Assembly: GCA_023205875.1 (NCBI GenBank) | Contig: CP060768.1 | Span: forward strand, 372,001 to 436,000 | Source: Chloropicon primus | Taxonomy: Eukaryota > Chlorophyta > Chloropicophyceae > Chloropicales > Chloropicaceae | Direction: 5' to 3' | Length of the DNA stretch: 64,000 nucleotides | Shown: positions 26,849 through 64,000 of the stretch, piece by piece | Numbering within the stretch: position 1 is the stretch's first letter | Layout of the letters: the number at the start of each line of letters is the position of its first letter | The notes under the pieces: model-generated | What the model saw: the letters and a program-made list of their open reading frames with translations, nothing else | Database searches by the model: none | Told to the model about the DNA's origin: nothing | Made by a program: the position numbers and the translations under genes

Positions 26849-29024
26849 TTACACACTTTTTGGTTGACGCAAGTGCTTCAGGAGGACGTTGCGTGCCCCG
26901 TTCACATCCCGACCGCACTTGAAGCCACACTTCTGGCACTTGTACACCTCTGCTCCACCCAGGTTGTCCTTGATGTGTCCGCACCTGCCACAGGTCTTGG
27001 AGGTGTACTCCTCCGTCACGATCGCCAGCTCACTGCCGTGCAAGAGCACCTTGGAAGCCAAGAACGTTCTGAACGCATAGTGCCTCAACGTCAAGAGCGT
27101 GCGAGCCGTCTTCTTCCTGATCACTCGGCGTCTCCCGTTGTTGTTCTTCTTCACCATGTCTTGGGACTTGAACTCCGGGAGGAGGATTGTGTCGAACCTC
27201 CTGCATAGATCGTTGGCTACCTTTTTGTGAAGCTCGTTCGTCAGACCTCGAAGTTTCTCCATGCAGGCGTATTGCTGTCTCTTCAAGTCGCGGCGGTCGA
27301 GGTAAGGGAGCTTCACCTTTGGGTCTTTGCGCTCGGAAATGATCTCATCAATCCTCCAGCAGAGGTTGAACAGCCTCGCGAAGCCTCGCTCGCCCGTGGC
27401 ATACTCCCCGACGCCTTCTTGCGGCGAGTACGACGTCTGAAAGGTCCTGACTCCCGGATCCAGGGCGACAACCTTCCGCTTGTTCTCAGGCTTCAGGGGT
27501 GGCAGGCGATCCCATGGCGTCGCGATGGGAATGTATGTGGAACTGCCCAAGGCGATTTCTTGTGATCTTCACGGCACCCTCGATCTTGCCCCCGGGGATC
27601 TCCTCCGTCAAGTACAGGGGCCCGCCGGCCATCTTCTTCTTGAACACCTCCAGCTTGGTCCACTTGCGTCGTTTGTTGTGCTTGGTGTCATCCTTGTGCC
27701 TCGTGTTTGGCCTTTCGATCGTCTCCACGTTCTTTAACTCTCTTGCATCAATTTCAATGGTCCAAGAGCTCGGTTGCTGACGTTGACGATACTTGAGAAC
27801 GAAGCGGTGCCCCTTCTCCTCGCCGCGCTCCTTCATCGCTTCCTGCTTCGCGATGTTCGAATCCCATGCCTTGATGAGACTTCGCACGGCAGCTTGTCTG
27901 ATGGCACAGGGGGTATCCTTCAGCCAAGGATGCTTCTGATTTACAAAGGCCCCGCTAACGTAGTCCCGGTCCTTGGCCACTTCGGCGCGAAATCGTCTGC
28001 CTCCAATTTGGCTCTCGAGTCTCTTCTCTCTGGCCGCGAAAAGCTCTGCCTCCTGTTTTGTCCATGGCCGTGGAGAGCATTGGATTTCTTTCAGCTCTTT
28101 CTCCAGCCCCTCAAAGACCTCAGGGCGTCGCGGTTTGGCCGTCACAAATCTGTCCAGCAGGACGGTCCAAACCAGCGGAAAACCCTCCTTCTTGACCGCC
28201 TCCAAACACTTGTTGTATGTGAAACGCGCAGCTCCCATCCAGTTGCAAAGGCACTTCGCCTGCTCAGGGTTCAAGCGCATCCTCAGCTTCCTCGTCCGTA
28301 TCACCGTTCGCTCCGACAATAGCTTGGAGGTCTTCAGTTTCTGCCCCCTCTTCCTTTTGGCGGGCGACTGCAATGTCTCGACGGATACCACAGAATCTTC
28401 TGGAAGGTTCAAGCACGACCTCCATCCCGTCTTCGGACACTTTACCTCTTCAAGTTCTCTCTTGATCGATGAGAACCAGGTCTTCTTCACGCTGTCGTCC
28501 GCCAAGCCACCCGGCTGCTTCCCTGCTTTCTTCCCCCTCTTGTTCTTCTTCTTCTTACCCTTCTTCTTGTTCTTCTTCTTGCCCTTCTTGCGAGGCTTCT
28601 TGCGAGGCTTGCCTGACGAGCTCGAACTCTCACCCGCAGAGGAAGCCGCCTCCGGCGGCTTCCCCTTCCGCTTCCGCTTCCCCCCCCGCTTCTTGCGAGG
28701 CGTGCTCGAACCCTCCTCGAAAGCAGAGGCGGGGTCGTCCAGCGGCTTCTCCTTCCGCTTCCGCCCCCGCTTCTTGCGAGGCGTGCTCGAACCCTCACCC
28801 GCAGAGGCGGGGTCGTCCGCGATAGGAAGCAGGCACAACGAGTAGAGCAACTGCAAGCCCTGATTCCAGAACCGACGTAACGGCCGCTCCGTCGTCGGAG
28901 ACTCCTGCCCCGACTTCGAAGCGCCCTGAGCATGACTCTCGCCAGAGTGCGACCTCCTTGTGGAACTCGTCGAGCCACTCCCCTGCTTCTCCTTTTTCTT
29001 ACGGCGCTTCCCTGATCGCGCCAT
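26849..29024 (-). pseudogene. Fanzor RNA-guided nuclease, copy 1, one frame break
   Basis: Two overlapping frames, 29024-27486 (512 aa) and 27550-26849, together cover a TnpB/Fanzor protein; the frame changes between 27550 and 27486. N-terminus: about 190 residues of Lys/Arg/Ser/Pro repeats (STPRKKRG-type), likely nuclear localisation. Then a TnpB-like helical/WED region (RTRKLRMRLNPEQAKCLCNW, GAARFTYNKCL). RuvC-I Asp is in VVALDPG (about 27460), the last RuvC Asp in CGRDVNGARNVLL (about 26908), and the zinc ribbon CGRCG...CQKCG lies between about 26990 and 26925. At the RuvC-II site the sequence is LLPEF, proline where TnpB has Glu, with Glu-Glu 55 residues on in TEEYTSKTCG, the rearranged site reported for Fanzors. 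It may be spliced or truly broken. Confidence 0.88.
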
Positions 29025-29185
29025 GACTGCTAGGGTTTCACTCGCTGCCCTCCTCGTAACTCCTCGTAACTATAGATTGGCCTTGTCCAGCAAGTGAGAA
29101 CGAGAAAACGTTTTGTGGGTTGTCCTTTGGGTGTGACCAAACTGGTATACACTGGAATCCCACCAACAGGGGAAAACCTCCAACA
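26849..29185 (-). mobile_element. Fanzor (eukaryotic TnpB-like) element, copy 1
   Basis: The 5' boundary is set by comparison with the copy at 63010: both begin TGTTGGAGGTTTTCCCCTG (here minus strand from 29185), and sequence beyond is unrelated. Homology covers the noncoding leader and the coding start. The 3' boundary is unknown but lies below 26849. No recombinase or transposase other than the Fanzor protein is encoded, so the unit is probably non-autonomous for movement. The flanking sequence 29186-29460 is the 5' region of NSE4. Confidence 0.85.
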
Positions 29186-29460
29186 TGAGGTGAGGTCACC
29201 ATCTCCTCTCCCGCCAAAAAAGGAGAAAAAAATAGGCGGGAGAGGAGGAGAGGAGAGGACGACGACGACGGGGGAGGGGTGCGAAGAGCTGAAGCGAACG
29301 AAAGATCGTCTCCCGATCTGGACAGGACGCCGCCTCACTCGACGCATTCGGAGGACGAGCTCGTGTCGAGAGGCACACCAGGATCAGATTTTGTTCCAAG
29401 GGGCAGGCCGATTGTGACTGACTTGACCCTCTCGGATTGATTGGAGCGAGGAAGAGCGCG

Positions 29461-30685
29461 ATGAAGGACCGGAGGAAGCTGAGGGAGAAGTACAGGGAGC
29501 TCATCGTGCTCTCTGAAGAGAACAGGGACTCGACTCAATGGGAAAAACCAGAAAAGGTGAGTTTTGAAACCATCTCGAACTCTTGTTGCTGATCTCATCC
29601 TCATCGTCAGCAACAACATCGTCACCACCGCCACCACCACTGATCTCACGAGGATCAAGTTGCGCGCTTCCCCTGCGACTGGTCTTCACCATCCTCCTGG
29701 ACGAGACTGACCGCCGACTTTGTTTGGACGAACCGGAATCGTTCGGTACCTTCTCTGTTCGACCCAACAGCTCAAGGAGATCCTCGCGACTGCAAACGAG
29801 CTTCACGGGCACGTGACGAAGCCGCGGGAGCACGCAGCGGACACGGAGCTGCTCAGCACGCTGGCTGCCTCCGGACTGTCTCACGCGAAGAAGAGCCTGG
29901 TGTGGGGCAAGAGGCTGAACACGGCGAAGGACCTCGTGAACGCTCTCAAGTGCGAGTACTTGCCAGGTTGGACGCCCAAGGAGGCCACGGCGGACCAGAA
30001 CTTGGAAGAATTCGATTGGGAGAAGGCGGGCGCCTTTGCCTCGAATTACTTGAACACGGTGGTCGGCGTGACGACCATGTTTGGACCCTTTCAGGACTTG
30101 ATGCCCAAGGAGGCGAGGCAGGCGAGCAGAAGGGGACCGAGGCAGAAGCTGGGAGAGCACGTGAACCCGGACGAGCTGGAGGATGCCCAGGCCTGCTGCA
30201 GTGAGCAGCAGAAGACCGATAAGAACATGGAGGAGATGTTGAACATCCTCCTGGACGCGGACAACTTGGACGCGGACGGCTCCGTGAAGATGGCCGAGCT
30301 GATCTTCAACCCCAAGAGCTTCTCGCAGACGGTGGAGAACATATTCACGCTCAGCTTCTTGGTGAAAGATGGGAGGGTCAAGGTGGTCGAGAACACCAAT
30401 GACGGGTGCATCATGGTGAGTGCGATGACGAGGAGCAGAGAGGGAGTGACGCAACAGATGGGACAGGTTCAGTTCATCTCCTCGTTCTCCATGAAGACGT
30501 GGCGGCTGATGAAGGAGAAGATTCGGGAATCCTCCTGCTTGATGAAGCACAGAACGGCAGAGGACCTCGGGCTGGAGGTACCGGAGTCCCCGGACGATGC
30601 GCCGCCGCCTCGGAGGAAGCGAGCTTCGCAGCAATCGCCCCCAAGGAGGAGGGCCGCCGCCCGCCGCATCATGTTGGACATGTAA
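29461..30685 (+). CDS. NSE4: SMC5-SMC6 complex kleisin NSE4
   Basis: Exons 29461-29556 and 29771-30685, phase-0 intron of 214 bp, 336 aa. Exon 1 encodes the N-terminal NSE4 signature (REKYRELIVLSEENR). Exon 2 continues with the helical neck region and the C-terminal winged-helix domain: FNPKSFSQTVENIFTLSFLV, KDGRVKVV and QFISSFSMKTWRLM match the conserved Nse4 C-terminal domain (compare plant TSFAQTVENLFALSFL). NSE4 bridges SMC5 and SMC6 heads with NSE1/NSE3 in DNA repair and restriction of extrachromosomal DNA. The C-terminal tail is basic. The Fanzor insertion lies about 275 bp upstream. Confidence 0.92.
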
Positions 30686-30970
30686 TAATGTATTCTTCAT
30701 TCTCGCACGTACGCCTCAATACCAATGCGTCAGAAAGCCTTCCGGCTCGAGCCCGTTCGATGCCCCAGGAGCAAGCATCACAAGCCGTACGGTGTTCAGC
30801 CATCGATGTCGACCGTCGATGCCGATGCGATGCACTCCTCCACTCACTCACCCCAAGCACGCGCTCCATGAGGGAGGATTTTGGAAAAATTTCGAGCTCG
30901 AGCTCGAGAGAGAGAGAGGGCGGGCGTTGAAGACGTTACGGGACTGGCGCGCCGAAGGGGAGGGTATGGT

Positions 30971-32752
30971 ATGGTGCTTCTAGACCTTCTGGACGTTGCC
31001 TTCAGGCGGTGCCTGCACAAGGAGGACTTCAAGTTCGAGAAGCACGACCTTGGCGGCTCGGGGTCGTGCTTGAACTCGGCGTCTCCTTCAAAGTATTTCG
31101 TTCTCGGCTTCAAGGACAGGAACCTGGAGGACGAATATCTTAGAGACCTGGCTCTTACAAACAGGAACAAGATCCTCGTTGGGTACGTGGTATCTATCCT
31201 CACGTACTTTTCGTCCTGGACGTCGGAGCTCTACTTTTTCATCCTGGGCGACAAGTATGGTTTCGTCGGGGCCAAGTTCAACAACACCGTGTTCTCCCTC
31301 AGCGTCTGCGCTCTCGCCGTGTTCGTTTTGGGGCTCGTCGCTTGCCTGCTCATTTACCGCAACAAGTCGTTGCCGAGCAAGAAGGTGGTGCTGCACGTTA
31401 CCATTGCGGTGTACTTTGCCTTCATGCTGTTCACGGGGGGCAAGTTGAGCAAAACGATTGCCGCCGCCCCGTTCGGGATGAACCAAGACCAGCCGATAGG
31501 TTGGGTGGTGAGGATAGTTTTCCTGGACGCCATACCTCTTCTGTCTGTCGTGTTCATGGGGTTGACTGCGCTGCACACCTTGGAGCTGGTCCTCGCTTTC
31601 TTCCTCATCTACCTCGTGATCGTTCCTGTTGTTGTCCACATCGGTGGCTTCGACGCATACGGGTTGCTTAGCAGCGAGAACATCATGGCTTACGCGGACG
31701 AGCACCTCAACGGGTTTATCTGCGACCGCATGTCCTCCGAACTTTGCGCCTTCTCGATCAGGTGGTTGATCGTAACGCCCCTCATCATGGTCTACATTGT
31801 GACGTTCACGGTCCTCATCGTCAGCGTAGTCGTGGAGCAGGGAAGCCGGGACTCTTTCATCAACAAAAAGATTATCGACGCTCTCACCAAGAGATCCGAG
31901 CTGGCGCTCCTGAAGCAAAAGGAGGAGCAAGAGGGGTTGATAAACTCGATATTCCCCCCCACCATAGCAAAGGATCTGATCGACAAGCAAATGGCGACGG
32001 AGCTCATGAATGAGGATTCCGTCGGACTCAAGAGGGTTGGTTCGTTGCAGAGCGTGGACGAGGATTTTGGGCGCCTCGTGGCTAGAATGCACGAGGATGT
32101 AACCATCGTGTTCACTGATATAGTGGGCTTCACCTCGATGTCGACGAACTGCTTGCCTTACGAGGTCATGAACTTCCTGCATCTTCTCTTCACGGGTCTC
32201 GATCATCTTGTGGACTCGGACACGCAACTGTGGAAGATAGAGACCATAGGCGATTCGATGATGGTCGTCGCAGGCCTGGATGTTCACGTCGAGAAGAGTG
32301 TGGACCTGGAGAGATCGAAGTCGCCGACTAAGTCCAGCAGTGGGATGGGCAGTGGGGCGAACAGCTACACCTTGCGGAGGGTTCTCACCTGCAAGCGCTC
32401 AAACAAATACACTTCTGCTACTTCTGCTGTAGATTTTGGCAGGGCCGCTTTGGGTGAAGCGGCCAAACACACGATGCCCAACGGCAAACCTTGCGCGATC
32501 CGAGTAGGGATCCACACGGGGGACGTCTGCTCCGGGGTGGTCGGAAGTAGGATGCCACGCTACTGCTTGTTCGGCGACACCGTGAACGTGGCCAGCCGGA
32601 TGGAAACGACAGGAGAAGCAGGAAGAGTCCACGTTTCGGAGGATACCTATGACTTGGTTTTCGGTGCTTTTGCGGATTGGGAGGAACGATCAGTCTCTGT
32701 GAAAGGAAAGGGCGAGATGAAGACTTATTTTTTGGTAGAGCAAGAACAGTAA
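30971..32752 (+). CDS. Membrane guanylyl cyclase-like protein, single catalytic domain
   Basis: 593 aa from ATG 30971; no intron. Six to seven hydrophobic helices (about residues 55-300: FVLGLVACLLIY, TIAVYFAFMLF, LVLAFFLIYLVIVPVVV, LIVTPLIMVYIVTFTVLIV and others) are followed by a coiled linker (LLKQKEEQEGLINSIFPP) and one class III cyclase domain. Both metal Asp are present (FTDIVGF, ETIGDSM), as are Asn/Arg (GDTVNVASRME). Glu in KIETIGD and Cys in RYCLFGD are the guanylyl-type purine selectors, so it should be a self-sufficient homodimer making cGMP (inference). About 70 residues are inserted in the catalytic domain (SKSPTKSSSG...). A second cyclase gene lies at the window start. Tail-to-tail with CDPK. 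Confidence 0.88.
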   Translation: MVLLDLLDVAFRRCLHKEDFKFEKHDLGGSGSCLNSASPSKYFVLGFKDRNLEDEYLRDLALTNRNKILVGYVVSILTYFSSWTSELYFFILGDKYGFVGAKFNNTVFSLSVCALAVFVLGLVACLLIYRNKSLPSKKVVLHVTIAVYFAFMLFTGGKLSKTIAAAPFGMNQDQPIGWVVRIVFLDAIPLLSVVFMGLTALHTLELVLAFFLIYLVIVPVVVHIGGFDAYGLLSSENIMAYADEHLNGFICDRMSSELCAFSIRWLIVTPLIMVYIVTFTVLIVSVVVEQGSRDSFINKKIIDALTKRSELALLKQKEEQEGLINSIFPPTIAKDLIDKQMATELMNEDSVGLKRVGSLQSVDEDFGRLVARMHEDVTIVFTDIVGFTSMSTNCLPYEVMNFLHLLFTGLDHLVDSDTQLWKIETIGDSMMVVAGLDVHVEKSVDLERSKSPTKSSSGMGSGANSYTLRRVLTCKRSNKYTSATSAVDFGRAALGEAAKHTMPNGKPCAIRVGIHTGDVCSGVVGSRMPRYCLFGDTVNVASRMETTGEAGRVHVSEDTYDLVFGAFADWEERSVSVKGKGEMKTYFLVEQEQ

Positions 32753-32826
32753 CTGAACTGAAGTTTTTGCTTTTTTTAATGGGAGCAGAAGTTCGTCATT
32801 TCAATACCACGGGCTGCTTACAAAAC

Positions 32827-34545
32827 TTAATACTTGGCCGATGCGTAGCGCTTGCGGAGTCTCTTGTCAAAAGTGTCCAAAGTCGTGGCTGTCTCATTGA
32901 TCATCTTTGTGAACTCAGTGAGCTCAATCTTGCCGTTATGATCCGTGTCAGCCTCCTCGATGATCTGCTCCACCTCGTCATCGATGTCTTCGAGGTACTC
33001 GCTGTAAGGAATCGCTTGCTTGATCTCCTCCGCAGATAGCTGGCCATCGCCATCCTTGTCGATCTCGTTGAAGAGGTCAGATACGATGTTCTGCCACTTC
33101 CTGTCCTTCTGCAAGGTCTTCAAATCCAACAGCGCGACGACGAATTCGTTTTGGTCCAGCTGCCCATTCCCGTCCACATCGATGTTCTCGATAATAACTT
33201 TCGAATCGTGGTCGCTCACCTTGTAGCCGTACTGTTTCAGACCCTCGACCATCTCTTTCTTGTCGATGAAACCGTCGTTGTCTATGTCCAGCTTGGAGAA
33301 GATCACACTCAATTCTTCCATTTCGTCCAACTCCAAGTACTTCAGGGCCTCTGTCAGGACTTTCCTCTTCAGCCTGTGGAAGCTGCCGATGGACTGAAAC
33401 TTTTGGATCATCGTGTCGTTCAGCGCAGCAGAGGGGGAGATGTCCGTGTCCAGCCACGGGTGCTTCACAATCTGCTCGTACGTAAGCCGCTTCGACGGAT
33501 TCCTCTCGAGCATCCTGGCGGCCAAGTCCTTCAACTGCGGGGAGATGTTTTTCCATATGGGTTTGTTGAAGCTCACCGGCTTGCTTGACACTTTCTGGCA
33601 CAAGTTCGCAAAAGTATCGCAAGGCTCAAAGGGGTTCTTCCCCTCTACGAGGAAGTAAAGCACGCAGCCCGCAGACCACACATCCGCGGGTTTGCCGTAC
33701 CCCTTCTTCATCAACACCTCGGGAGCCATGTAAAACGGAGTGCCCGTGGTGTCCTTCTTCGGCTTTCCCGTCCACATGCAGCTCAGGCCGAAATCGATCA
33801 TCTTCAGAGGCGCTTTCGGGCTCTTCTCCGACTTGAGGAAGTTCTCCGGCTTGATGTCGCGGTGCAAGATGTTCTGCTTGTGGCACTGCCCGACAAGCCT
33901 AGCGATGTCCTGGAAGTAAACCCTCACGTCAGACTCCCTGAAGTTCGAATTCGCGTTCACGTTGTAGATCAGGTCGCCCCCCGAGCAATGCTCCATGACC
34001 ATGTAGACCGCTCTCGCGTCCTCGTAAGCGTCCTCGAAATGCACGACGTTCAGGTTGTTCCTCAGCTTCATCATGATCTCTATCTCGAGCAGGAGGGCGT
34101 GGCCGTGCCTCTTGCTCCTGAGGAGGTCCTTCTTGATCCGCTTCACCGCGAAGACTTCCTTCTCCTCCGGGTCTGCTGGACGCCTCCTCTTCGCGAGGAA
34201 AACGGATCCAAAGGCCCCCCTCCCCAGCATGCGCATCGTCTTGAACTCGGCTTCGTACGACGTCTTGAAGTTGAAGTTGCCATCGTACCCGTCATCCACG
34301 CTCCTCTTGATCTTCTGCAAGCTCCTCATCGTCAGCCGGCTCCGCTGGGAGACGGACGAGAGCGACGAGGTCTCGGAGAAGTTCACCGAGGGTTCACTCT
34401 CGCTCCGTTCTGAGTCCGATTTCCCGGACGACGAGTCCCGCGTCGCGAGCAAGGACGACGAGCTCGCGCTCGCCTTCTTCTTCGACCAGCAGAACAGCCT
34501 CCTCCACCACGCCTTCTCGTCCTTGTTCCTCGGACGCTTCTCCAT
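32827..34545 (-). CDS. Calcium-dependent protein kinase (CDPK)
   Basis: 572 aa from ATG 34545. N-terminal variable domain, then a Ser/Thr kinase domain: GRGAFGSVF (P-loop), FAVKRIK (VAIK Lys), ILHRDIKPEN (catalytic loop), MIDFGLS (DFG) and GTPFYMAPE (activation). A junction helix and four EF-hands follow: DIDNDGFIDKKE, DVDGNGQLDQNE, DKDGDGQLSAEE and DTDHNGKIELTE, all with full calcium loops. This is the canonical CDPK of plants, green algae, alveolates and some other algae. No N-terminal Gly/Cys for myristoylation or palmitoylation. TTTCAG just before the start could be the acceptor of a 5' UTR intron. Head-to-head with the WD40 gene. Confidence 0.95.
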   Translation of the reverse strand: MEKRPRNKDEKAWWRRLFCWSKKKASASSSSLLATRDSSSGKSDSERSESEPSVNFSETSSLSSVSQRSRLTMRSLQKIKRSVDDGYDGNFNFKTSYEAEFKTMRMLGRGAFGSVFLAKRRRPADPEEKEVFAVKRIKKDLLRSKRHGHALLLEIEIMMKLRNNLNVVHFEDAYEDARAVYMVMEHCSGGDLIYNVNANSNFRESDVRVYFQDIARLVGQCHKQNILHRDIKPENFLKSEKSPKAPLKMIDFGLSCMWTGKPKKDTTGTPFYMAPEVLMKKGYGKPADVWSAGCVLYFLVEGKNPFEPCDTFANLCQKVSSKPVSFNKPIWKNISPQLKDLAARMLERNPSKRLTYEQIVKHPWLDTDISPSAALNDTMIQKFQSIGSFHRLKRKVLTEALKYLELDEMEELSVIFSKLDIDNDGFIDKKEMVEGLKQYGYKVSDHDSKVIIENIDVDGNGQLDQNEFVVALLDLKTLQKDRKWQNIVSDLFNEIDKDGDGQLSAEEIKQAIPYSEYLEDIDDEVEQIIEEADTDHNGKIELTEFTKMINETATTLDTFDKRLRKRYASAKY

Positions 34546-34931
34546 GCTGCTGCTGAAACACAACAAACAACAACAAACAACAACAACAACAAGAGACAGA
34601 GAGAGAGAGAGAGAGAGGAGAGGCCAGTCGACGCTCCGACGCAACGCGAGGGAACGAGCCAAGAGGCAGCGTAGTCTTGCAGACGCCTTCCTCCAACCTA
34701 ATCGACGACAAGCAGATCGTAGTGAAACCCTAGCCTAGCTGCTTCGTAACGTGCGATTGCGAGGAGGCGAGGCCGTAACGTCGTCACAGAAGAGGGAGGG
34801 GCTTCTCGTCGACGATTGGTTCGTTGTCGAGGGAAGCGAAGTGGCTGGGGGGGAGGCCTAGGTTCATCGGAGCAAGGGAGGAAGTCTTGCCGTCCTTTTT
34901 CTTCTTCTTCTTCTTCTTCTTCTTCTTCGAG

Positions 34932-34971
<40 letters not shown>

Positions 34972-35005
34972 CGTAGCAGAGAGAGCCAGAGAGAGAGGCA
35001 GGCAC
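34546..35005. promoter_or_regulatory. Divergent promoter region with microsatellites
   Basis: Contains CAA-rich and GA tracts at about 34555-34618, (TTC)n at 34901-34927 and (GTT)13 at 34931-34970, the last two just before the WD40 start. No gene. Confidence 0.5.
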
Positions 35006-37481: not shown

Positions 37482-37516
<35 letters not shown>

Positions 37517-37923
37517 TAACCGATCGATCACTTGCGCTGGCGATCAGACACTACGGCAGGCCGATCGATCAGGAGGGAGAGAGGGAGTCGAGGGAGAGCG
37601 AGAGAGAGTGTCGAGCCTTTCACTACAACAGACCGATCGACTCACGGAGGAGCAGGAGCAGGAGCAGGAGTAACCGATCGATCACTTGCGCTGGCGATCA
37701 GACACTACGGCAGGCCGATCGATCAGGAGGGAGAGAGGGAGCCGAGGGAGAGCGAGAGAGAGTGTCGAGCCTTTCACTACAACAGACCGATCGACTCACG
37801 GAGGAGCAGGAGCAGGAGCAGGAGTAACCGATCGATCACTTGCGCTGGCGATCAGACACTACGGCAGGCCGATCGATCAGGAGGGAGAGAGGGAGCCGAG
37901 GGAGAGCGAGAGCGAGTGTCGAG
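37469..37923. repeat. Three tandem 154-bp repeats
   Basis: The landmark TTGCGCTGGCGATCAGACAC occurs at 37532, 37686 and 37840, exactly 154 bp apart. Units contain a variable GGAGCA run, CCGATCGATC palindromic motifs and a GAGAGAGAGGGAG purine tract. It lies in the shared upstream region of SEC20 (minus) and the small secreted protein (plus). The third unit is shortened at its 3' end. The open frame across it is not coding, since 154 is not a multiple of three and each unit is read in a different frame. Confidence 0.92.
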
Positions 37924-37993
37924 CAGACCGATCCATCGAGGAGAGGCAAGGAAGAGCGGGGATCGGCGATCGGTGCATACGGCAAAGCGAAAC

Positions 37994-44070: not shown

Positions 44071-44434
44071 ATTTTTTTTGACAGTTTTGACCAAGCCAGT
44101 TTTGAGGAGTTGAGGCAAAGGGAGCCACGCCTTTGTGGCGCGGCGTGTTGCTGCGTTTATTTGTCTTTTGGGTTTCGGTTTCGGCGTGCGCACGGATGCA
44201 CGGATGCCTTTTCGTGTCTCAACAGCAGCAACACACACAGTGGGTCCAAAGAATGATGGGTCCTATCCTATTCTGTCCTATCTTGGACGACAGGAGGACA
44301 GGAGGACAGGAGTGGTTGTTGCTGGATTGGTTCGCTCGCGCCCCTAAATAAACCTCACACCCGAGACAGCGGCGTTTTTGTTGTTTTGTGTTTCACATTT
44401 CATGTATTCATCCTAGTTTTTGCTTTTGGTTTGC
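44071..44434 (+). repeat. Left arm of 365-bp inverted repeat
   Basis: From ATTTTTTTTGACAG to GCTTTTGGTTTGC. By eye it matches the reverse complement of 45376-45740 throughout, except one base in the T-run. It starts about 115 bp after the F-box stop and contains TAAATAAACC (possible polyadenylation signal) and a GGACAGGA triplication. The identity implies a recent event or ongoing conversion. Confidence 0.95.
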
Positions 44435-45375: not shown

Positions 45376-45378
45376 GCA
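45342..45378 (+). repeat. 37-bp direct repeat, copy 1 (inner side of right arm)
   Basis: TGGAGGGTGGTGGTTTGAC followed by CCACCATACTTGTGTGCA. It recurs at 45740-45776 with one mismatch (C to G), so the right inverted arm sits between two direct copies, like an insertion with a long target duplication. Confidence 0.9.
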
Positions 45379-45740
45379 AACCAAAAGCAAAAACTAGGAT
45401 GAATACATGAAATGTGAAACACAAAACAACAAAAACGCCGCTGTCTCGGGTGTGAGGTTTATTTAGGGGCGCGAGCGAACCAATCCAGCAACAACCACTC
45501 CTGTCCTCCTGTCCTCCTGTCGTCCAAGATAGGACAGAATAGGATAGGACCCATCATTCTTTGGACCCACTGTGTGTGTTGCTGCTGTTGAGACACGAAA
45601 AGGCATCCGTGCATCCGTGCGCACGCCGAAACCGAAACCCAAAAGACAAATAAACGCAGCAACACGCCGCGCCACAAAGGCGTGGCTCCCTTTGCCTCAA
45701 CTCCTCAAAACTGGCTTGGTCAAAACTGTCAAAAAAAAAT
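45376..45740 (-). repeat. Right arm of 365-bp inverted repeat
   Basis: Reverse complement of 44071-44434. It ends in a nine-base A-run (plus strand) before the second 37-bp direct repeat. On the minus strand this A-run is a T9 stretch about 92 bp after the tRNA. Confidence 0.95.
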
Positions 45741-55009: not shown

Positions 55010-56071
55010 ATGGTGGGAAGTGATGGGGGTCAGCAGATGTGGGGTGTGGGCATGGCGGTCGCTGCTGTGGCAGCGAGCGCTGTCTATGCCTTCCTCGCCA
55101 AGAGGAAGGAGGAGGAACCGACGACGGCCAAGGTCCCGAGGAAGAAGTCGTGGAGGCGGGACAGTGAAGGAAAGGTCGAATTCACCAAGCTTCAAGTCCT
55201 TTACGATCGAAAGTGCTTCGGGGGGAGACAGATTCGATACCTCCACGAGAGCAAAGCTTGCAAGAACAAGATGGTCTTCTCGGTCTACCTCCCCGCCTGC
55301 TACGACGAGGAGGACACGACGAAGGTTCCGTTCATCTATTGCCTGACTGGCCTGACGACTTCTGATGAATACTTTCCGACTTCCACCGGAATCCAACAGT
55401 TCGCGAGCAAGCATCGGATCGCCTTGGTTTGTCCTGACACTTCCCCGAGGAACACCGGGGTCGAGGGCGAGAGCGAGTCCTTCGAAGTTGGGATCGCCGC
55501 TGGCCTGTATTGCGACGCCACTGAGAAGAAGTGGTCCAAGTGGCAGATGTACTCTTACGTTGTGAAGGAGCTGCCCAAAGTCCTGGCCCACAACTTTCCA
55601 AAGCTGGATCAACAGAACTGCACGCTGCTCGGCCACAGCATGGGCGGCTGTGGGAGCCTGCAGATCTATCTGAAAAACAGCACCAAGTACAAAGGCTGCT
55701 CGTGCATCAACGCGGTCACCAACCCGTCCAATGGCGTTTGGGGCCCAAAACCGCTGACGGCGTACCTTGGTGACAACCCCGAGGCGTGGAAGAAGTATGA
55801 TCCCACCGAAGTGGTCGCAAAGTACTCGGGGCAGCCTCTCAAAATATGGATTGAACAAGGGAGCGAGGATCCTTACCTCAATTTCGATCTCTTGCCGTAC
55901 AACTTCAAGGAAGCTGCTGACAAGAACAAGCGGGTGGACGTGAAGTTGACTTACCGCGCGGGTTATGACCACGGCTTTGCTTGTGTGACGTCCCTCATCG
56001 AGGGGCACCTCTACTACCACGCGAAAATTTTGGGCCGAGTGGTCGAGAAGAAGAAGTCGAGTTTTTTCTGA
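55010..56071 (+). CDS. FGH: S-formylglutathione hydrolase with N-terminal membrane anchor
   Basis: 353 aa from ATG 55010. Esterase D family: IYCLTGLTTSDEYF, VCPDTSPRN, GHSMGGCGS (nucleophile Ser), EQGSEDPYL (Asp), GYDHGF (His). The known enzyme (about 280 aa, cytosolic) completes glutathione-dependent formaldehyde oxidation. Here about 70 extra residues precede the domain, including a hydrophobic stretch (GVGMAVAAVAASAVYAFLA) followed by KRKEEE, so it is probably membrane-anchored or organelle-targeted. One exon. Head-to-head with clathrin light chain, tail-to-tail with GET3. Confidence 0.92.
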   Translation: MVGSDGGQQMWGVGMAVAAVAASAVYAFLAKRKEEEPTTAKVPRKKSWRRDSEGKVEFTKLQVLYDRKCFGGRQIRYLHESKACKNKMVFSVYLPACYDEEDTTKVPFIYCLTGLTTSDEYFPTSTGIQQFASKHRIALVCPDTSPRNTGVEGESESFEVGIAAGLYCDATEKKWSKWQMYSYVVKELPKVLAHNFPKLDQQNCTLLGHSMGGCGSLQIYLKNSTKYKGCSCINAVTNPSNGVWGPKPLTAYLGDNPEAWKKYDPTEVVAKYSGQPLKIWIEQGSEDPYLNFDLLPYNFKEAADKNKRVDVKLTYRAGYDHGFACVTSLIEGHLYYHAKILGRVVEKKKSSFF

Positions 56072-56174
56072 GTAGCTGCCCGACGACGACGACGACAACA
56101 CACGAGAAGGAGCGAGCGCGTCCTTGCATTGTTTATTAGATTTTAATCCATTGACCTGCCGTTTTTTTGTGCTT

Positions 56175-57194
56175 TCAGGAAGGCCGATAAGGCTTTGTGA
56201 GATTTTTGGCGAAGGCCTTGAGTTTCTCGATCCCCCGGACTTCCTCCGCGAGCAGCGGCGTCTTCACCAAATGAAAGTCCTCGTAAAGATCCTCGTACTG
56301 GCTGATGTATTTCTCTTGCATCTTGACCCTGGCATGGAGCAAGCACGTGGACTGGCAGCAGTGCTCACCAAACAACACTTGGTTGATCACGATGTTGTGG
56401 GAATCGATCTCGTACTCGGCGAGATCCTGAATCAGCCTTTCCGTCTCGTAAAGAGAAAGAAACTCTGGAATGCACACGCACACAAACGTCGTGAGATCGG
56501 GATCGCTGAACTGCTCCTTGACTCGGTGAACCATCCTTCGGAGTTCCTCGACCTTGGCAAGGAGCCCGTCTTGCTGGTCACCGCCGCCTCCCATGAACAT
56601 GCTGAGCGGACCCATCAAATTACCCAATATCCCATTTGCCCCGGCAAACTTGTCCAACGCCTTGTCGAAGACCTGCGGCAGCTGCAGCAACCGCAGCGTG
56701 TGCCCCGTCGGCGCGGTGTCGAACACCACGACGGAATAATCCATCTGCTCCACCTCCTTCATGACCTCGCCGAAGCTCATGGCCTCATCTATTCCCGGTA
56801 TCGAGCTCGCCATGTCGTTCAGAAAATCCAAGCTCTCGCCCATCCCAAGAGGGTCTCCTCCGGAGGTCGGACCTCCCAGTGAGCTGTTGCCGCTCGCGTC
56901 CACCTCCATCGCGTACAAGTTGTCGAAACCATTCACTTGTTCTGGTTCCCCGCTGAACTTCTGCTGGAAGGCGTCGCTCAAGTTATGCGCTGGATCTGTC
57001 GATATCAGCAGCACTTTCTCTCTGACGCTCGCAAGAAGTATCGCGAGACAGCACGACGTCGTGGTCTTCCCCACGCCACCCTTCCCTCCCACAAATATCC
57101 ACTTCAAGGCCGTCTGATCCAAAACGTTCTCCAGGGTTGGATCCAAGGGCTCCTCCAAGGATGCGAACGACTCCTCACTGTCACTTCCTTCCAT
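56175..57194 (-). CDS. GET3: GET3/ASNA1 tail-anchored protein targeting ATPase
   Basis: 339 aa from ATG 57194, one exon. Deviant P-loop [10 protein letters not shown], switch [14 protein letters not shown]-loop [41 protein letters not shown] and EEVRG. A Gly/Met-rich central insert ([14 protein letters not shown]) is the client-binding region. The zinc-dimer CxxC is altered: the site reads [11 protein letters not shown], so cysteines are spaced CxxxC. Function: ATP-driven delivery of tail-anchored membrane proteins to the ER. Confidence 0.96.
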
Positions 57195-57737
57195 GACGAC
57201 CGACGGCGATGCTGACAATCAATCACACGGCGGAAGCTGATGAGCGTTGCACTCCACTCCACTACCACACCCAAGCACGACACCTTCCTCGCCGCAACGC
57301 AACCTCCTCAATTCAATCCCTCTCTCAATCCCTCTCTCTCTCTGTGTCTTCGTTGAGAACGAGAGAGAGGAGCAAAGCGCCGTCGCTCTTGGCGATCACG
57401 CGAAGCAGGTCTCGAGGACGGAGCCTCTCCGCAATCACTGCGCCGCACGGCCTTCGCTTCCACACGCAGCGCAACTCCTCCTCCTCGTCGTCGTCGTCGT
57501 CGATCTGTTCGATCAGTTTTGCTGCTTGAGCTCGACAGAGAGAGAGAGGAGTTGGACTTCCTCCGTGTCGTGGTGCTGCCGACGAGGAGAGGGGAGAGAA
57601 GGGGAGGAGGTGTCGAGCAAACGGAAGGGCGTCTCACGAGCTTTCGATTGATACCTCGGTTGAAGGATGATGGCACCGCCAAACGATCGTCGCGCGCGTT
57701 GTCAACGGGTGAAGTGAAGAGGTTGAGTGGTTGGTGG
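57195..57737. promoter_or_regulatory. Divergent region
   Basis: Between GET3 and the phytase-esterase-like gene. TCAATCCCTCTC repeats at about 57310-57340 and (CGT)n at about 57485-57502. No gene. Confidence 0.45.
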
Positions 57738-59060
57738 ATGATGAGGATGAGGATGAGGATGAGGCGGGGCGTTGTCATGGTATCTCTCTTCTTCTTCGCA
57801 GCGTCGTGCGTCTTCATCGAGGCCGCAGCGAAGAAGGTCAAGGTGAAGGAGGAGAGGATCCAGCAGCTGGACCTCGAGCCGGGCCACTTTGCTGGGCTGG
57901 AATTCATGGGAGGCCTCATCCTTCACGCCAAGGACGACCACTTCGGTGGGTGGAGCGGCATCGTGACCAAGAGGGAGGGGAGAGAGGTGGTGGCTGTGAG
58001 CGACAAGGGGTACTGGTTGAACATGACGCTCTCTTACGCGGAGGGTGGGAGGGCACCTATGGAGGTCACTGGCGCGTGGACGTACCCGCTCCTCGACCCA
58101 GAAGGGAACCCGCTGAAGAAGAAGGCTTGGGCTGACGCAGAGTCTGTGGTGTTCGGCAGTCGTGGAGACCTCTTGGTGTCCTTCGAAAGGAACCACAGAA
58201 TTGTGAGGTACGACAACGTGACAGCGCCCGCGACTACTGACTCGGCCCTTACGCTCGCTTCCGAGATTCTCAGCAAGCACTGCAACTATAACGGTGGCCC
58301 AGAAGCCATCGAAACTTATGAAGACCACCTCATCATGTTCTGCGAGGATGCTATAGACGGGTACGACACTTCCTTCCAGGGCTGGCTCGTCCCGCTTCAG
58401 CCAGCGCCCGGGGCTCGAGAGAAGAGCGAGCTCGGCTACTCCAGGCGCTTGTTCATGAAGATAACGGACGGGTTTCGGCCAACGGACTTTGCCATGCTCG
58501 ACTCGGGTGATCTGCTGATCTTGGAAAGAATGCACGACGGCCATCGGACCGGCTTCAGGCTGGAGGTCATACCGAGAAAGTACTTGGCAGCGACAGGGGA
58601 AGAGGCCCTAGTCGTTCCCGCGAGAGCAGCCGAGGCGTGGCAAAGCCCTTCCAACCCCGTCGATAACATGGAGTGCCTCTCCGTGGATCAGCTTGAGGGT
58701 GGTAAGGTGCGAGTTAACCTCATGTCCGACGACAACTTTTCGTCCAAGCAACAGACGGTCTTCTTCGTCTTCGAGGTCCACGCCGAGGACTTGGTTGAGT
58801 ACGCGTATGAAATGGCACGAGTGGAGGACTTTCCACCATCCAATCCTCAGGTGCTTTCCAACGGCACGAGAGAGAAAACAATTCAGGTGGTCGTGGGCGT
58901 TTCTCTTTTCCTCGGTGGCCTCTTGACGGGCGCGGGTGTGGTGATGATTGTGAACTATGTACGGTCAAAGAATTCGAACAAAAGGAAGTACGAGAGCTTT
59001 GTCGCGATGACGAGGCAGGACTTCAACGACTTTTCCTTGCCTTCTGACGACCAAATGTAA
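57738..59060 (+). CDS. Phytase-esterase-like (PF13449) type I membrane protein
   Basis: 440 aa from ATG 57738, one exon. Signal peptide (GVVMVSLFFFAASCVFIEAA), then a lumenal propeller-like domain matching the esterase-like activity of phytase family: GWSGIVTKREGREVVAVSDKG, ADAESVVFGSRGDLLVSFER, NHRIVRYD, NGGPEAIE, DGFRPTDFAMLDSGDLLILER. A C-terminal transmembrane helix (VVGVSLFLGGLLTGAGVVMI) and a short basic tail follow. Family members are secreted phosphatase/esterase-like proteins of uncertain substrate. Confidence 0.83.
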   Translation: MMRMRMRMRRGVVMVSLFFFAASCVFIEAAAKKVKVKEERIQQLDLEPGHFAGLEFMGGLILHAKDDHFGGWSGIVTKREGREVVAVSDKGYWLNMTLSYAEGGRAPMEVTGAWTYPLLDPEGNPLKKKAWADAESVVFGSRGDLLVSFERNHRIVRYDNVTAPATTDSALTLASEILSKHCNYNGGPEAIETYEDHLIMFCEDAIDGYDTSFQGWLVPLQPAPGAREKSELGYSRRLFMKITDGFRPTDFAMLDSGDLLILERMHDGHRTGFRLEVIPRKYLAATGEEALVVPARAAEAWQSPSNPVDNMECLSVDQLEGGKVRVNLMSDDNFSSKQQTVFFVFEVHAEDLVEYAYEMARVEDFPPSNPQVLSNGTREKTIQVVVGVSLFLGGLLTGAGVVMIVNYVRSKNSNKRKYESFVAMTRQDFNDFSLPSDDQM

Positions 59061-59097
59061 ACGTGTGTGGTAGATTACATATATATCTTGTTTTTTC

Positions 59098-61416
59098 CTA
59101 CTCCTGCTGCCTCCAGAACTTCAAGATTGCACCAACACAGAGAGTGACGAACCCGTCCCCAACTTTGAGCACGGACAGCAAGGGCTCCCCATGAGCCTCC
59201 TGCTGGGCTACGGACGGGATCATCTCCATCTGGGCGCGCGGGACGGAGCCCGCTATGAGAGACTGGGAAGCGGAGGTCGTCCTCGAGGGCTCCCCGACAC
59301 TCGTTGGCGTTACCTCCAGGTCTGGATCTTGCTGGTCCGCTCCCGGAGAATTCGGAATAGCGATGGCGGCCGTGCCCGCGGGAATGCCATCGAAGCTCAG
59401 CTTCATTGGCGTGGAGTTCGTGCCGCCCGTGGAGACCCACCTCCTGTGGCGAGGGCGGGTGGTTGTCTTGTCGGCAGCAAGGTCATCAATGTCATCCGGA
59501 GCCTCAAACTCCCACAAGGCCACTTGGGTGTCCTGACCCACAGAGAGGAACTTGTACATCCTCGTCTGAAGCCGCTCACTGCTGATGTCAGTGTCACCCT
59601 CCGCCTCGTCCTCTTCCCCGCTACCGGCCTTGTTTGCCTCACCGTGGCTCTGCTCCGTGACCGACAGGAAGGCCAAGTCGCTGACCCAGCTCCTGTGGCC
59701 CTCCCCGAAAGCAACGAGGCAGTTGTCCGCGATCGAGAATATTTCTACGAGGTCATCCTCGCCCCCACACACGACAAACCTGCTATCTTGGGACCAAGAG
59801 ACGCACAGGTAGCCACCAAAGTAGGATCTGCAGCCGGCCCGGAGGGTCCCAGAACCCACATCGAAGATCCTCAAAACCCCGTCACACGAAACGCAGGCCA
59901 ACTGGTAGCCGTCGTTGGAGAAAGCCACCGAGTTGATCGCTACCCCGTTGCAGACATTCCACTGCACAACGAGACAGGCATCCGAGCTGTCATCCGATCC
60001 TTTCGCCTTGCTCACCTGGGGTGTGCCAGGCTGAGATGGAACCACACCAAGGCCATCTTTGGAATCGCTGCTGGCGCTCGAGGCGTTCGTGTTGTTGTTC
60101 CCGTTGCTATCCGACTTGTTACGCCTCAGCGAGGAGAAGAAGGAAGAGCCGCCAGAGCTGCTCAAGCTGAGCTCCTTCCCTCCCTTGTCCCCGGAGCCTC
60201 CCGTCTCCGCAGACCCTTTGCTTGGCGTCGTCGGAATCTTCTCAGGGGAGCTCGCTGTGTGCGACGACAGAACACCACCATTCGGGGAGTAGACGTGCAG
60301 AGACCCATCGACGAATGCCGCGACAAGGACCCTCGCCGAATTTGATTCGTTCGCATCGTTCTTGTTTGAGACCGACCGGGGGCTCCAAGATATCGCCGTG
60401 CACCTCCCAGTCTCCGCGGCGCGGTCTCTGTTATAGTACTTGACAGCCGTGATCTTCACTTTGCTCGTTCCCCCTCCGCCCTTGGACTGGCTTGAGAAGA
60501 CTCCGCCGACTTTGGACGACACGGTATCCTTTCCCGGGCTTCCCTTTGCGCTGTCCGCTCCCCCACCCACTCTCGTTATGTTCTGTCTGATATGGTGCCT
60601 CATGCTGAAGGAGAGGAGCTCCCCAGTCGCCAAACCGACGGCGTAGTCGTGGTCACCAGCAATGGGCGGCAGCATCGTGAAGTTGACCTACGGAGCGGAA
60701 CGAGAGAAGGACAGAGACCTCGTGTCAATAAGCAAGGAAGAGACCCCGTGTTTTTGAGCAAGGGGAGCGGGAGGGGGAACACAAGATCGCGGCGATGGAA
60801 TTGAACCTCGGCCTTCGTTCTCACCTGCTGTCCTGCGTGACAGGTGGGGCAGATGCCTCCGAAGCTGATCGTGTGCACCGGGGAGGCCTCAGGGTCCACC
60901 TTGTCGACAATATGAAGAACGTCATACCAGTTCAGCACCACAAAGTTCTTTCCGGTGACCTGGTCGTTCTCCCCTCCTTCGATCGGCAAGCAGCAGAGGA
61001 GAAGAAGCAAAGCGGCGCAGAGAGAGCGGCGGCCTGTCAGCGCTCGAATGCCCAACCAACAAGCAAGGAGGGACAGAAAAGAAAACAAGGAAAGGAGTTG
61101 ATGGCGCTTCCCTCGTGAAGTCGGGTCACTCACCTCGCTCCGTCTCGACCAAAGTAAGAGAAGGGTTCGAGTACCCTGCTCCGAAGACTCCGCTCGATCC
61201 GTTCTGCGATACTCGGACACCCGGTGGCAACGACGTTTGTATCGTAGCAGTCACCTTTTTCCCTTGGCAAACGCTCCCGGTCCCTCCAACCCTTTTCGGC
61301 GAGCTCGACGGCGAGCTCGAGGTCCCGCGGTCCGTCCTCAGGGGGAAGAACTCCCAGTTCAGTCCGTAAGACGCATCCGTCGCGCTCAACCCCGTCTTCA
61401 GCTCCTTCCCGCCCAT
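59098..61416 (-). CDS. WDR20: WDR20/CreC-family WD40 protein
   Basis: Exons 61416-61134, 60976-60825 and 60687-59098 (phases 1 and 0); introns 157 and 137 bp; about 674 aa. The N-terminal segment NFVVLNWYDVLHIVD leads into the WD repeats, and YAVGLATGELLSFSMRH, GRCTAISWSPRS, VAAFVDGSLHVYSPNG, INSVAFSNDGYQLACVSCDG and YFGGYLCVSWSQDSRFVVCGGEDDLVEIFSI follow the order of WDR20, DMWD and fungal CreC. The acidic inserts between repeats are typical. In animals WDR20 activates USP12/USP46 deubiquitinases, in fungi CreC pairs with CreB. Tail-to-tail with the phytase-like gene, 37 bp apart. The acceptor of exon 2 is weaker (CGATCGAAG). Confidence 0.85.
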
Positions 61417-61429
61417 CCTCCTCTCCTCT

Positions 61430-61468
<39 letters not shown>

Positions 61469-61798
61469 TTTTCAAGCTAGCGAAGCGGATGAAGGGAGGA
61501 GGGTACAGCTTCATCGCACTGGGGTTCATCACTCGCGGCAAGTGTTTCTGCTGCACTGCACTGCACTGCACTGCCCCGCGAGGCTCGGAAGAACGAGACC
61601 AAGGAGAAGACGAGGAGGAGGGGGACCGAAGAAGAAGAAGAAGAAGAAGAAGAAGAAGAAGAAGAGAATTTGTTGAGAACGTTTGTGACTTGTGTTGAGT
61701 CGATTGCACACAAAAATGTTTTTGATTTTGCTTTTATCTTTCTTTCTGCCGTTCTTGGTTCTTGTGGTCCGGTGCTCGTTGCGTGGCTTGCAAGCGAT
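61417..61798. other. Intergenic with CT and GAA microsatellites
   Basis: (CT)n at about 61432-61464, CTGCACTGCACTGCACTG at about 61551-61571 and (GAA)n at about 61628-61664. No gene. Confidence 0.5.
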
Positions 61799-62326
61799 TC
61801 AGAGCAAGTTCTCGAGTGCACGCTGCTGAAGGACCTTCTTTACTCCCGACACGGGTTTGCCAGCCTTTTTGAGGGCAACCTTGAGCTCCTTCACCTTCCA
61901 GCTCATGATCTCCTCCTCCGTGTACGTCTCGCTCTCTGCCTCAGCTTGGGAAACAGCCTCCTCCTCCTCCTCCTCCTCCTCCTTGATCTCCGTCTCAGTC
62001 GTCGTCGTCGTCGTCGCTGGGGGTGGCGCCACCATTTCATCAACGACCTCCTCCCCGTGGGGTGCCCACGACGGCTCTCCCGCCTCGAGGTCCTCGCCCA
62101 ATGCCTCCTCGACCGTGTCAACGTCTTTCTCCGGCGCCTCCGCGACACCGCTCACAACTGGCGCCTCCTCGGCCCCCTCCAGCTCCGGCAACGAGGGTCC
62201 CAGGCCCAGGCCGTTCAATTCCTCCGACGACTCCAGCATCTGCTCACGTGAGGGGAAACAACATTTTGCGAGGAGGAGAAAAAAAACGTTCGTTCAGTCG
62301 CCGACACACACACACACACACACACA

Positions 62327-62376
<50 letters not shown>

Positions 62377-62729
62377 TCTCCAGCTCCAAGTCGCCTCTCG
62401 CTTACCTCAAAGTCAATATCAAGCTCCGCCTCAAGCTCGTCTATCATCCTCTTCAGTTCTGCATTCTCCCTCTCCGCGATGCGAAGCCTCTCCAGCTGAG
62501 CTTCCAGCTGTTCGTCCATCGTCGCCTGCACGTCCTTCTTCCCCGTCTCGCGGTCCATCCCCGTCGCCCTGAGTCGCATGCTTCGGCACAGCTTCCTCAA
62601 GCAGACGGAAGAGAACGGAAGACCTCCTCGCTCCTGCTTCATTAAACTCCGCCTGGAGGAAGTGCTCCCCCTCGCCGACGCCGTGACGCATCGAGGCGTA
62701 CCTCTCTTCCACAACACCTGCTTGCTCAT
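61799..62729 (-). CDS. Coiled-coil and SAP-domain protein
   Basis: Exons 62729-62406 and 62239-61799, phase-0 intron of 166 bp; 254 aa from the first ATG (downstream Met codons are possible starts). A coiled coil (MDEQLEAQLERLRIAERENA) ends exon 1; exon 2 has an acidic, Pro/Thr-rich stretch with EEEEEEEE and a C-terminal SAP motif (SWKVKELKVALKKAGKPVSG, VKKVLQQRALENLL). SAP domains bind AT-rich DNA or RNA. No closer assignment. Confidence 0.7.
62303..62376. repeat. Compound (AC)n-(CT)n-(CG)n microsatellite in an intron
   Basis: About 26 nt of AC, 31 nt of CT, then 16 nt of CG, inside the SAP-gene intron. Alternating purine-pyrimidine AC and CG tracts can form Z-DNA; the CT tract can form triplex. 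Confidence 0.95.
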
Positions 62730-63009
62730 CTCCTTCACAGCAACCAGCCACGTGATCCCATCATCATCATCATCACAGACCCACCCCCCCAAAAAAAAAC
62801 AAAAAACGCAAAGTCTCAGGGTCTCCCATCCTCCTCACGACGCCATTCCCTCCGAGTGAGGTGTCATTCGAAAGAGGATGAGACAAATCATGCGATGGTG
62901 ACGCCTTCCTTCCCCCCTATCGTCCCCCTCGTCGCTGAGAACGACCTCGAACGTACCTCGTGCGCGCTCCTTTCGCTTCCCGCCACACAAGATCTCTAGA
63001 CCACAGGAT

Positions 63010-64000
63010 TGTTGGAGGTTTTCCCCTGTTGGTGGGATTCCAGTGTATACCAGTTTGGTCACACCCAAAGGACAACCCACAAAACGTTTTCTCGTTCTCA
63101 CTTGCTGGACAAGGCACTGGTAAAAAAACTAGCCTCGCGAGAGGAAGGGAGGAGGACGCCGAGTGAAACCCTAGCAGTCATGGCGCGATCAGGGAAGCGC
63201 CGTAAGAAAAAGGAGAAGCAGGGGAGTGGCTCGACGAGTTCCACAAGGAGGTCGCACTCTGGCGAGAGTCATGCTCAGGGCGCTTCGAAGTCGGGGCAGG
63301 AGTCTCCGACGACGGAGCCGTTACGTCGGTTCTGGAATCAGGGCTTGCAGTTGCTCTACTCGTTGTGCCTGCTTCCTATCGCGGACGACCCCGCCTCTGC
63401 GGGTGAGGGTTCGAGCACGCCTCGCAAGAAGCGGGGGCGGAAGCGGAAGGAGAAGCCGCTGGACGACCCCGCCTCTGCTTTCGAGGAGGGTTCGAGCACG
63501 CCTCGCAAGAAGCGGGGGGGGAAGCGGAAGGGGAAGCCGCCGGAGGCGGCTTCCTCTGCGGGTGAGAGTTCGAGCTCGTCAGGCAAGCCTCGCAAGAAGC
63601 CTCGCAAGAAGGGCAAGAAGAAGAACAAGAAGAAGGGTAAGAAGAAGAAGAACAAGAGGGGGAAGAAAGCAGGGAAGCAGCCGGGTGGCTTGGCGGACGA
63701 CAGCGTGAAGAAGACCTGGTTCTCATCGATCAAGAGAGAACTTGAAGAGGTAAAGTGTCCGAAGACGGGATGGAGGTCGTGCTTGAACCTTCCAGAAGAT
63801 TCTGTGGTATCCGTCGAGACATTGCAGTCGCCCGCCAAAAGGAAGAGGGGCAGAAACTGAAGACCTCCAAGCTATTGTCGGAGCGAACGGTGATACGGAC
63901 GAGGAAGCTGAGGATGCGCTTGAACCCTGAGCAGGCGAAGTGCCTTTGCAACTGGATGGGAGCTGCGCGTTTCACATACAACAAGTGTTTGGAGGCGGTC
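63010..64000 (+). mobile_element. Fanzor element, copy 2, cut by window end
   Basis: Starts TGTTGGAGGTTTTCCCCTG and matches copy 1 (29185 downward) through CTCACTTGCTGGACAAGGC. A 35-45 bp block then differs between the copies, and similarity resumes at GAGTGAAACCCTAGCAGTCATG and continues to the window end. The flank upstream (62730-63009) is the 5' region of the SAP gene. Orientation is opposite to copy 1, 34 kb apart. Confidence 0.9.
63180..64000 (+). pseudogene. Fanzor RNA-guided nuclease, copy 2, 3' partial with one frame break
   Basis: ATG 63180. The N-terminal basic, disordered region is the same as in copy 1 apart from two small indels within repeats (one Arg fewer after SPTTE, and KRKGK for KRKRKGK). 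The frame breaks at a G-run of four (63847-63850) where copy 1 has five; beyond it the DNA continues to match copy 1 (RTRKLRMRLNPEQ region) to the window end. All later domains lie outside. As other G-run breaks occur in this window, a consensus error is possible and the gene may be intact. Confidence 0.85.

Follow-up and report, generated by a model that had tools for sequence, protein, structure and literature searches.

The stretch of Chloropicon primus DNA analysed here, hereafter the window, comprises 64,000 nucleotides of contig C15 (372001-436000; telomere sequence of this contig, CCTAAAA(A)) and carries two near-identical loci for a Fanzor nuclease on opposite strands. Comparison with the whole assembly (17,584,162 bases in 20 contigs) has shown that both are members of a recently amplified, transposase-less transposon which carries a Fanzor2-type gene followed by the scaffold of a right-element RNA (reRNA, also omega RNA). 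While the transposon is of a known kind, the new point is that its guide is internal and, near the 3′ end of the element, bears a junction which is hypervariable and cut-like. This junction was overlooked when the window was first read; in copy 2, it lies outside the window.

The two loci and their transposon family

26523..29185, minus strand: Fanzor transposon copy 1 (locus L001), complete, 2,663 bp, with ends taken from the comparison of 30 copies
63010..64000, plus strand: Fanzor transposon copy 2 (locus L003), 5′ part, with 1,642 further bases past the window
63005..63009, plus strand: left target-site duplication AGGAT of copy 2, the right duplication being outside the window

The original prediction, made from the window only, held that two near-identical Fanzor copies lie in opposite orientation, share a sharp 5′ boundary and were recently mobilised or copied. 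The pair has proved to be real: copy 1 starts exactly at 29185 (minus) and copy 2 exactly at 63010 (plus), homology ends precisely at these positions and the matched arms are 98-100% identical in the repeat listing of the window. Recent mobilisation is likewise borne out, as a single substitution and 4 gaps separate the pair across 2,352 aligned columns outside the junction and target duplications show that a discrete element was inserted. Copy 2 is flanked on both sides by the 5-bp duplication AGGAT, and copy 1 by a 6-bp match, ACCTCA, within an 11-bp CCTCA repeat. Because the flanks differ and homology stops at 29185/63010, the pair is not a segmental duplication; this possibility and that of one misassembled locus have been ruled out at the level of the assembly, each copy having separate flanks and its own target-site repeat. 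Other parts of the prediction had to be amended. Small indels do separate the copies, but so do a leader block of about 45 columns, the guide junction and one base to the right of it. The 5′ starts stood, whereas the 3′ end of copy 1 is 26523, neither 26849 nor 27486. As a test case, the pair retains its well-defined boundary but is not special, representing two of at least 30 copies.

The assembly-wide search and copy alignment that had been proposed have now defined both ends and the target duplications from these 30 copies. In the genome search, 46 matches to copy 1 resolved into 30 full or nearly full loci (L001-L030), a lower bound, with 40 of 49 candidates scored. The element measures about 2.64 kb (TGTTGGAGGTTTTCCCC...CTGAACACCATAACA), its ends read TGTTGG...CATAACA and exact inverted sharing between the two ends is limited to TGTT/AACA. 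Target duplications were scored in the 19 copies with both ends recognised (11 of the 30 being left unscored) and are exactly 5 bp in 16 of them; L001 has 6 bp, while L017 and L028 have none. When flanks were mismatched as a control, 5 of 342 pairs agreed, through chance or a common motif. The 5′ end has 31 matches in the genome (27 in the L001-L030 loci and 4 in short elements) and the 3′ end 39 matches in 35 places (the 30 loci, 4 short elements and 1 solitary 3′ end). From the ATG onward and with the junction excluded, pairwise divergence has a median of 1.7% and a maximum of 3.1%. The leader (window 29025-29080) exists in several unlike block versions, reshuffled among copies. An early right end is seen in a variant, GTGACTTATCTG, common to L010, L019 and L033; in L010, CCAGA is found near both sides and an alternative right end may have served.

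A Fanzor2 within a cut-and-paste transposon of C. primus has already been published (Yoon et al., 2023, PMC10711439), and the transposon described here is probably that Fanzor2* family. In strain CCMP1205, the genome of which is described as collinear with that of RCC138 (PMC12301720), 25 proteins resembling IS605-family transposases have been listed (Lemieux et al., 2019, PMC6731263), while the main text of the paper on C. primus RCC138, whose assembly is Nanopore-based and short-read polished, makes no mention of Fanzor, IS605 or TnpB (PMC12301720).

The nuclease gene

27486..29024, minus strand: 5′ part of the Fanzor2-type open reading frame (ORF), 512 codons, frame broken relative to intact members
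26849..27550, minus strand: 3′ part of the same ORF, 233 codons, with the zinc ribbon and last RuvC motif (domain placed on the intact copy L002)
63180..63860, plus strand: start of the Fanzor ORF of copy 2, 226 codons to the frame break

The only long ORF of the element encodes a Fanzor2-type nuclease. Its identity as a Fanzor, which had been recognised from the window, is upheld by matches to PF07282 (E 9e-18), a RuvC-type nuclease with C-terminal zinc ribbon, and to HTH_OrfB_IS605 (E 2e-6). The best solved relative is 9b0l (E 2e-19), the TnpB-like protein L79, a mimivirus Fanzor2; ALDPG of the C. primus protein aligns with IDPG of L79 (DPG motif). None of the 19 structure-chain matches up to E 10 is labelled Fanzor, and the placement as Fanzor2 instead of Fanzor1 is tentative. 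An intact ORF (>650 codons) is found in 20 of the 30 copies, and the ratio of non-synonymous to synonymous polymorphism (pN/pS) is 0.54 for the nuclease part of 19 of these 20. Both window copies have broken frames (512+233 codons in copy 1, 226+525 in copy 2), although some of the frame breaks may be errors, since the assembly is Nanopore-based.

The transposon as a vehicle

26523..26639, minus strand: 3′ transposon module, common to the Fanzor-less elements L033-L036
29070..29185, minus strand: 5′ transposon module, first ~116 bp, common to L033-L035 (first 73 in L036)

Four short elements of ~350-640 bp (L033-L036) have ends in common with the Fanzor transposon and unrelated middles; in L034, a duplication, AGTGG, was recognised by eye. 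As these elements share ends but not middles, the Fanzor is a cassette carried by a host transposon, whose end modules lie on either side of it. Besides the Fanzor gene, the element contains no long ORF, be it for a serine recombinase or for another protein. Since a recombinase gene is lacking and duplications are 5 bp long, the present vehicle is not an IS607 element. Searches of the genome for rve, MULE and DDE_Tnp_1 returned no match, a negative which covers these families (the hAT search had a silent control). A vehicle mobilised by a long-terminal-repeat integrase (TG...CA, 5 bp) was considered and dismissed, there being no rve match and no long terminal repeat seen. The Fanzor-like relics L038-L046 were likewise discarded as the autonomous partner, as they are only fragments without transposon ends. 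The search for viral relatives gave 129 pattern stretches, 0 of which were confirmed. A divergent Fanzor relic with stop codons lies at C14:513915-514514 (in L047), with ~58% identity over 204 residues.

The reRNA scaffold and its internal guide

26695..26854, minus strand: predicted reRNA (omega RNA) scaffold, with a 5′ hairpin and a long-range helix closing at the 3′ end
26681..26694, minus strand: first 14 nucleotides of the internal guide, TAAGTTGTGGCCGG in copy 1
26640..26680, minus strand: the hypervariable site, made up of the copy-specific junction TCTCCT and a pyrimidine-rich tract of 12-nt repeats
26633..26695, minus strand: candidate GT-AG intron, GTAAGT...CTTTCAG, overlapping guide and junction (from sequence only)

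Prediction and comparison place a scaffold which overlaps or follows the 3′ end of the Fanzor gene. Its fold, obtained from an alignment of 13 scaffolds, consists of a 5′ hairpin and a long-range helix, UUGUUAGU/ACUAACAG, which closes at the scaffold end. Of 34 predicted pairs, 5 are changed on both sides in at least one sequence, with a small covariation term (-0.1). In L002, GTTAGT begins 130 nt upstream of the scaffold end. Only 5 scaffold versions exist among the 30 copies.

The position of the scaffold end is further indicated by eight stand-alone scaffold loci (L038-L042 and L044-L046, on C13, C16, C15, C19, C1 and C2), which are attached to the ends of 5′-truncated Fanzor ORFs; L039 has two scaffold copies, while the L038 scaffold is without the 5′ strand of the long helix. 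In each of the eight loci, the scaffold's last bases read ACTAACGG, ACTAACAGG or ACTAGCGG, summarised as ACTAAC(A)GG or ACTAGCGG; the DNA beyond is unlike the 3′ module of the element and different at each locus. L042 and L046 have a common 93-bp 5′ end (98%). In the transposon, the scaffold end lies 172 nt inside the right end of copy 1 and ~0.15-0.2 kb inside across elements. As the scaffold thus ends within the element, the guide position is occupied by the element's own DNA (TAAGT...GGCCGG), and because this position is internal, the guide sequence is identical to the DNA at its own locus.

The base triplet preceding the guide is AGG in 30 of 30 transposon copies, whereas among nine stand-alone places it is CGG in eight and AGG in one. 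Reported target-adjacent motifs (TAMs) of Fanzor2 and IS607 systems are CCG, TAG and GGG. In the C. primus element AGG, unlike CGG, may permit self-cutting. The change of CGG to AGG also yields a good splice donor, CAG|GTAAGT. A guide spliced at the candidate intron (exon 2, TGGAAAGG...) was considered and rejected: that stretch is without comparable scars, and those of the junction rarely extend into it (L020, 1 of 30). Three guide 13-mers of the family are found only in the copies (28 of 42 matches). Guide-like 13-mers elsewhere were set aside: with other central triplets, they make up the 14 matches outside the copies, and the 7 of them which were read look unrelated.

A hypervariable junction

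Following AACAGG, the guide begins with TAAGT(AGT, AGG or TGT)GGCCGG, which is 14 nt long in 28 of the 30 copies and has an extra T (15 nt) in two; these first 14 nucleotides vary little. They are followed by a copy-specific piece of 5 nt in 10 copies, 6 nt in 12 and another length (0-17) in 8, and then by a tract, (CGTGTTTCTCTC)n TTTCAG, shortened at 18 different right endpoints. The junctions are of 28 distinct kinds among 30 copies. In a scan of the alignment from the ATG onward, with 119 windows of 40 columns each, 28 haplotypes were counted in each of the two windows at the junction, compared with a median of 3 and a next highest value of 13. Similarly, 23 distinct gap runs fall within 85 junction columns versus 25 in the remaining 2,451.

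Of the 435 pairs, 34 show no difference across the 450 columns on the left side; the junction differs in 33 of these and is shared in 1. In 29 of the 30 copies, the junction is unlike that of the nearest relative. The two window copies, near-identical as they are, have unrelated junctions, L001 reading TAAGTTGTGGCCGG-TCTCCT-(long tract) and L003 TAAGTAGGGGCCGG-ACGG-(short tract). L026 contains a 17-nt filler, and L020 has lost the entire tract and 17 nt beyond it. Twenty of the 27 pieces of at least 4 nt are absent from the tract. The control is provided by three Fanzor-less elements: these differ at 13/479, 72/517 and 66/415 positions, yet all 3 carry an identical tract. Two partial loci end nearby: L037 (C1:71412-71562) is a solitary 3′ module which has lost its left side at the tract, and L043 (C9:68744-68924) consists of a scaffold end and TAAGTAGTGGC followed by unrelated DNA. 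It is possible that both are large deletions from the same break point.

Recurrent self-cutting as a proposed explanation

The explanation which we favour is that the Fanzor recurrently cuts its own reRNA locus and that end joining leaves scars; judged from sequence comparison, its chances appear about even. A Fanzor-reRNA complex supplied by any intact copy would recognise the guide site, with the scaffold end (CAGG in the transposon family) able to act as TAM. Cleavage ~14-20 nt downstream of the TAM, followed by error-prone end joining, would then keep the 14 nt on the TAM side and add a scar. Since this DNA is also the template of the guide, the locus would match its own guide even after repair and could be cut again. 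Such an arrangement could have arisen when an IS607-like Fanzor2 inserted into GG, perhaps within the splice donor AG|GTAAGT of the host transposon; IS607 elements are known to insert at GG (PMC10711439). This insertion would have created the present right junction and turned intron sequence of the host transposon into a guide, and cleavage of Fanzor-free copies of that transposon may have been the first role of the complex. Taken as a whole, the proposal of a natural self-targeting guide RNA, with a transposon nuclease that recurrently cuts the guide locus and leaves a barcode-like scar in each copy, whether as a side effect of homing into Fanzor-free copies of the host transposon or as a means to it, is tentative, and we hold it slightly less probable than its negation.

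Measured along the guide, the scars occupy positions 15-20, close to where Fanzors have been reported to cut: cleavage occurs after 19 on both strands with NlovFz2, after 16-17 and 20-21 with SpuFz1, and after 14-17 and 14-16 with GtFz1 (Saito et al., 2023, PMC10432273). Several observations weigh against self-cutting. Published positions are broad, since MmeFz2 cuts after 17-18 but its target strand after 9-14 (PMC10432273). Where the 14-mer is the same (121 pairs), divergence begins directly at 14 in 67 pairs, at 19 in 8 and at 20 in 3; with so few divergences at 19 or 20, a second step at 19-20 therefore rests mainly on piece length and shared pieces. The cut-distance ruler was spotted post hoc, and the length of 5-6 nt depends on how the tract is aligned. 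No copy has lost bases before guide position 14, which self-cutting leaves unexplained. The leader is also variable (13 and 15 haplotypes among 27, in a region outside the 119-window scan), and the Fanzor-less control comprises only three elements.

The remaining adverse points are also those which favour the main rival, repeat-tract instability, in which pyrimidine-rich 12-nt repeats in a short intron slip and become misaligned when the DNA is replicated or undergoes gene conversion, a nuclease playing no part and the 14 nt marking simply where unique sequence ends. Being repetitive, the tract could be inherently unstable, its unit number varies, and 7 of the 27 pieces of at least 4 nt are present in it. 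The copies are mosaic, with frequent short exchanges (four-gamete fraction 0.34 at <50 bp), which could partly be an artefact of polishing. GTAAGT is kept in 30 of 30 copies and the CAG acceptor in 29 of 30, as a real intron would demand. We nevertheless consider this explanation rather unlikely, as most pieces, including the 17 nt of L026, are not found in the tract, the 17 nt missing beyond the tract in L020 are not repeat sequence, the three Fanzor-less elements have the same tract in unchanged form and variation is located at the left edge of the tract.

Junctions might instead reflect transposition if, after each excision, copying from another copy stopped here from both sides and the ends were joined. 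Such interrupted gap repair would account for about one junction difference per copy even among near-identical copies, for filler and deletions typical of end joining and for mosaic copies. However, breakpoints would then be expected along the whole element, which has few indels elsewhere apart from the basic repeat region, and a left edge fixed in 30 of 30 copies would need a strong block, none of which is evident; we regard it as improbable. More improbable still is that the functional reRNA extends to the outer right end, with the terminal repeat and target duplication in the scaffold and the guide in the flank, so that the internal junction would be irrelevant to guiding. This arrangement has been proposed for Fanzor2*s from folding (PMC10711439), but the eight stand-alone loci end at the internal point, where the long-range helix also closes, and the outer 3′ module is common to elements without a scaffold.

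As to the role of Fanzors for the transposons that carry them, this genome may hold a record of the nuclease at work, in the form of ~30 natural scarred target sites at cut-site distance from the guide boundary. If recurrent cutting is true, these scars would represent in vivo evidence of native Fanzor activity and a natural counterpart of homing guide RNAs, and would offer a testable account of how a Fanzor2 of IS607 type came to reside in a cut-and-paste transposon of a eukaryote. If it is false, the site is still strikingly unstable and a good marker of family history.

Other repeats in the window

Three further repeats were observed. At 2686-8029, a 1.96-kb unit is present three times in tandem, and two of its ORFs (492 and 500 aa) match the Pfam family Beta-lactamase (PF00144). 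A perfect 363-nt inverted repeat occupies 44072-44434 and 45376-45738, with 941 nt between the arms. At 37494-37955, a 154-bp unit is repeated three times in tandem, with 99% and 85% identity to the first.

Comparison with known systems

In the passages considered from the Fanzor and TnpB literature, no description was found of an internal guide, a hypervariable junction or copy-to-copy scars. This includes the closest system, the C. primus Fanzor2* transposon (Yoon et al., 2023, PMC10711439), which comes from the same species and very likely represents the same family. It is a cut-and-paste transposon that carries a Fanzor2, duplicates its target site and has degenerate terminal repeats, which may also be present here. 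The Spu-1 Fanzor and its ghost elements are similarly multicopy and transposase-less, with Fanzor-less relatives and stand-alone guide-RNA loci; unlike the C. primus element, Spu-1 encodes a Fanzor1 and takes its guide from the flank, and self-cut scars are not mentioned in the passages considered (Saito et al., 2023, PMC10432273). In the IS607-type ISXfa1 TnpB system, the scaffold also ends in GG and its 3′ end pairs ~130 nt upstream (U-130/A-3; PMC10711439), the same distance as for the start of GTTAGT in L002. IS607 elements use a serine recombinase and make no target duplication, whereas the C. primus element has no recombinase gene and makes 5-bp duplications.

IStrons combine TnpB with a group I intron, and splicing and guide-RNA formation would compete there as they would here, although the intron of the C. 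primus element is a candidate spliceosomal GT-AG intron of ~28-80 nt. In engineered homing, or self-targeting, guide RNAs, the guide locus is its own target and collects end-joining scars. While these are synthetic Cas9 tools, the C. primus locus is natural, and the nuclease that would cut it is a Fanzor.

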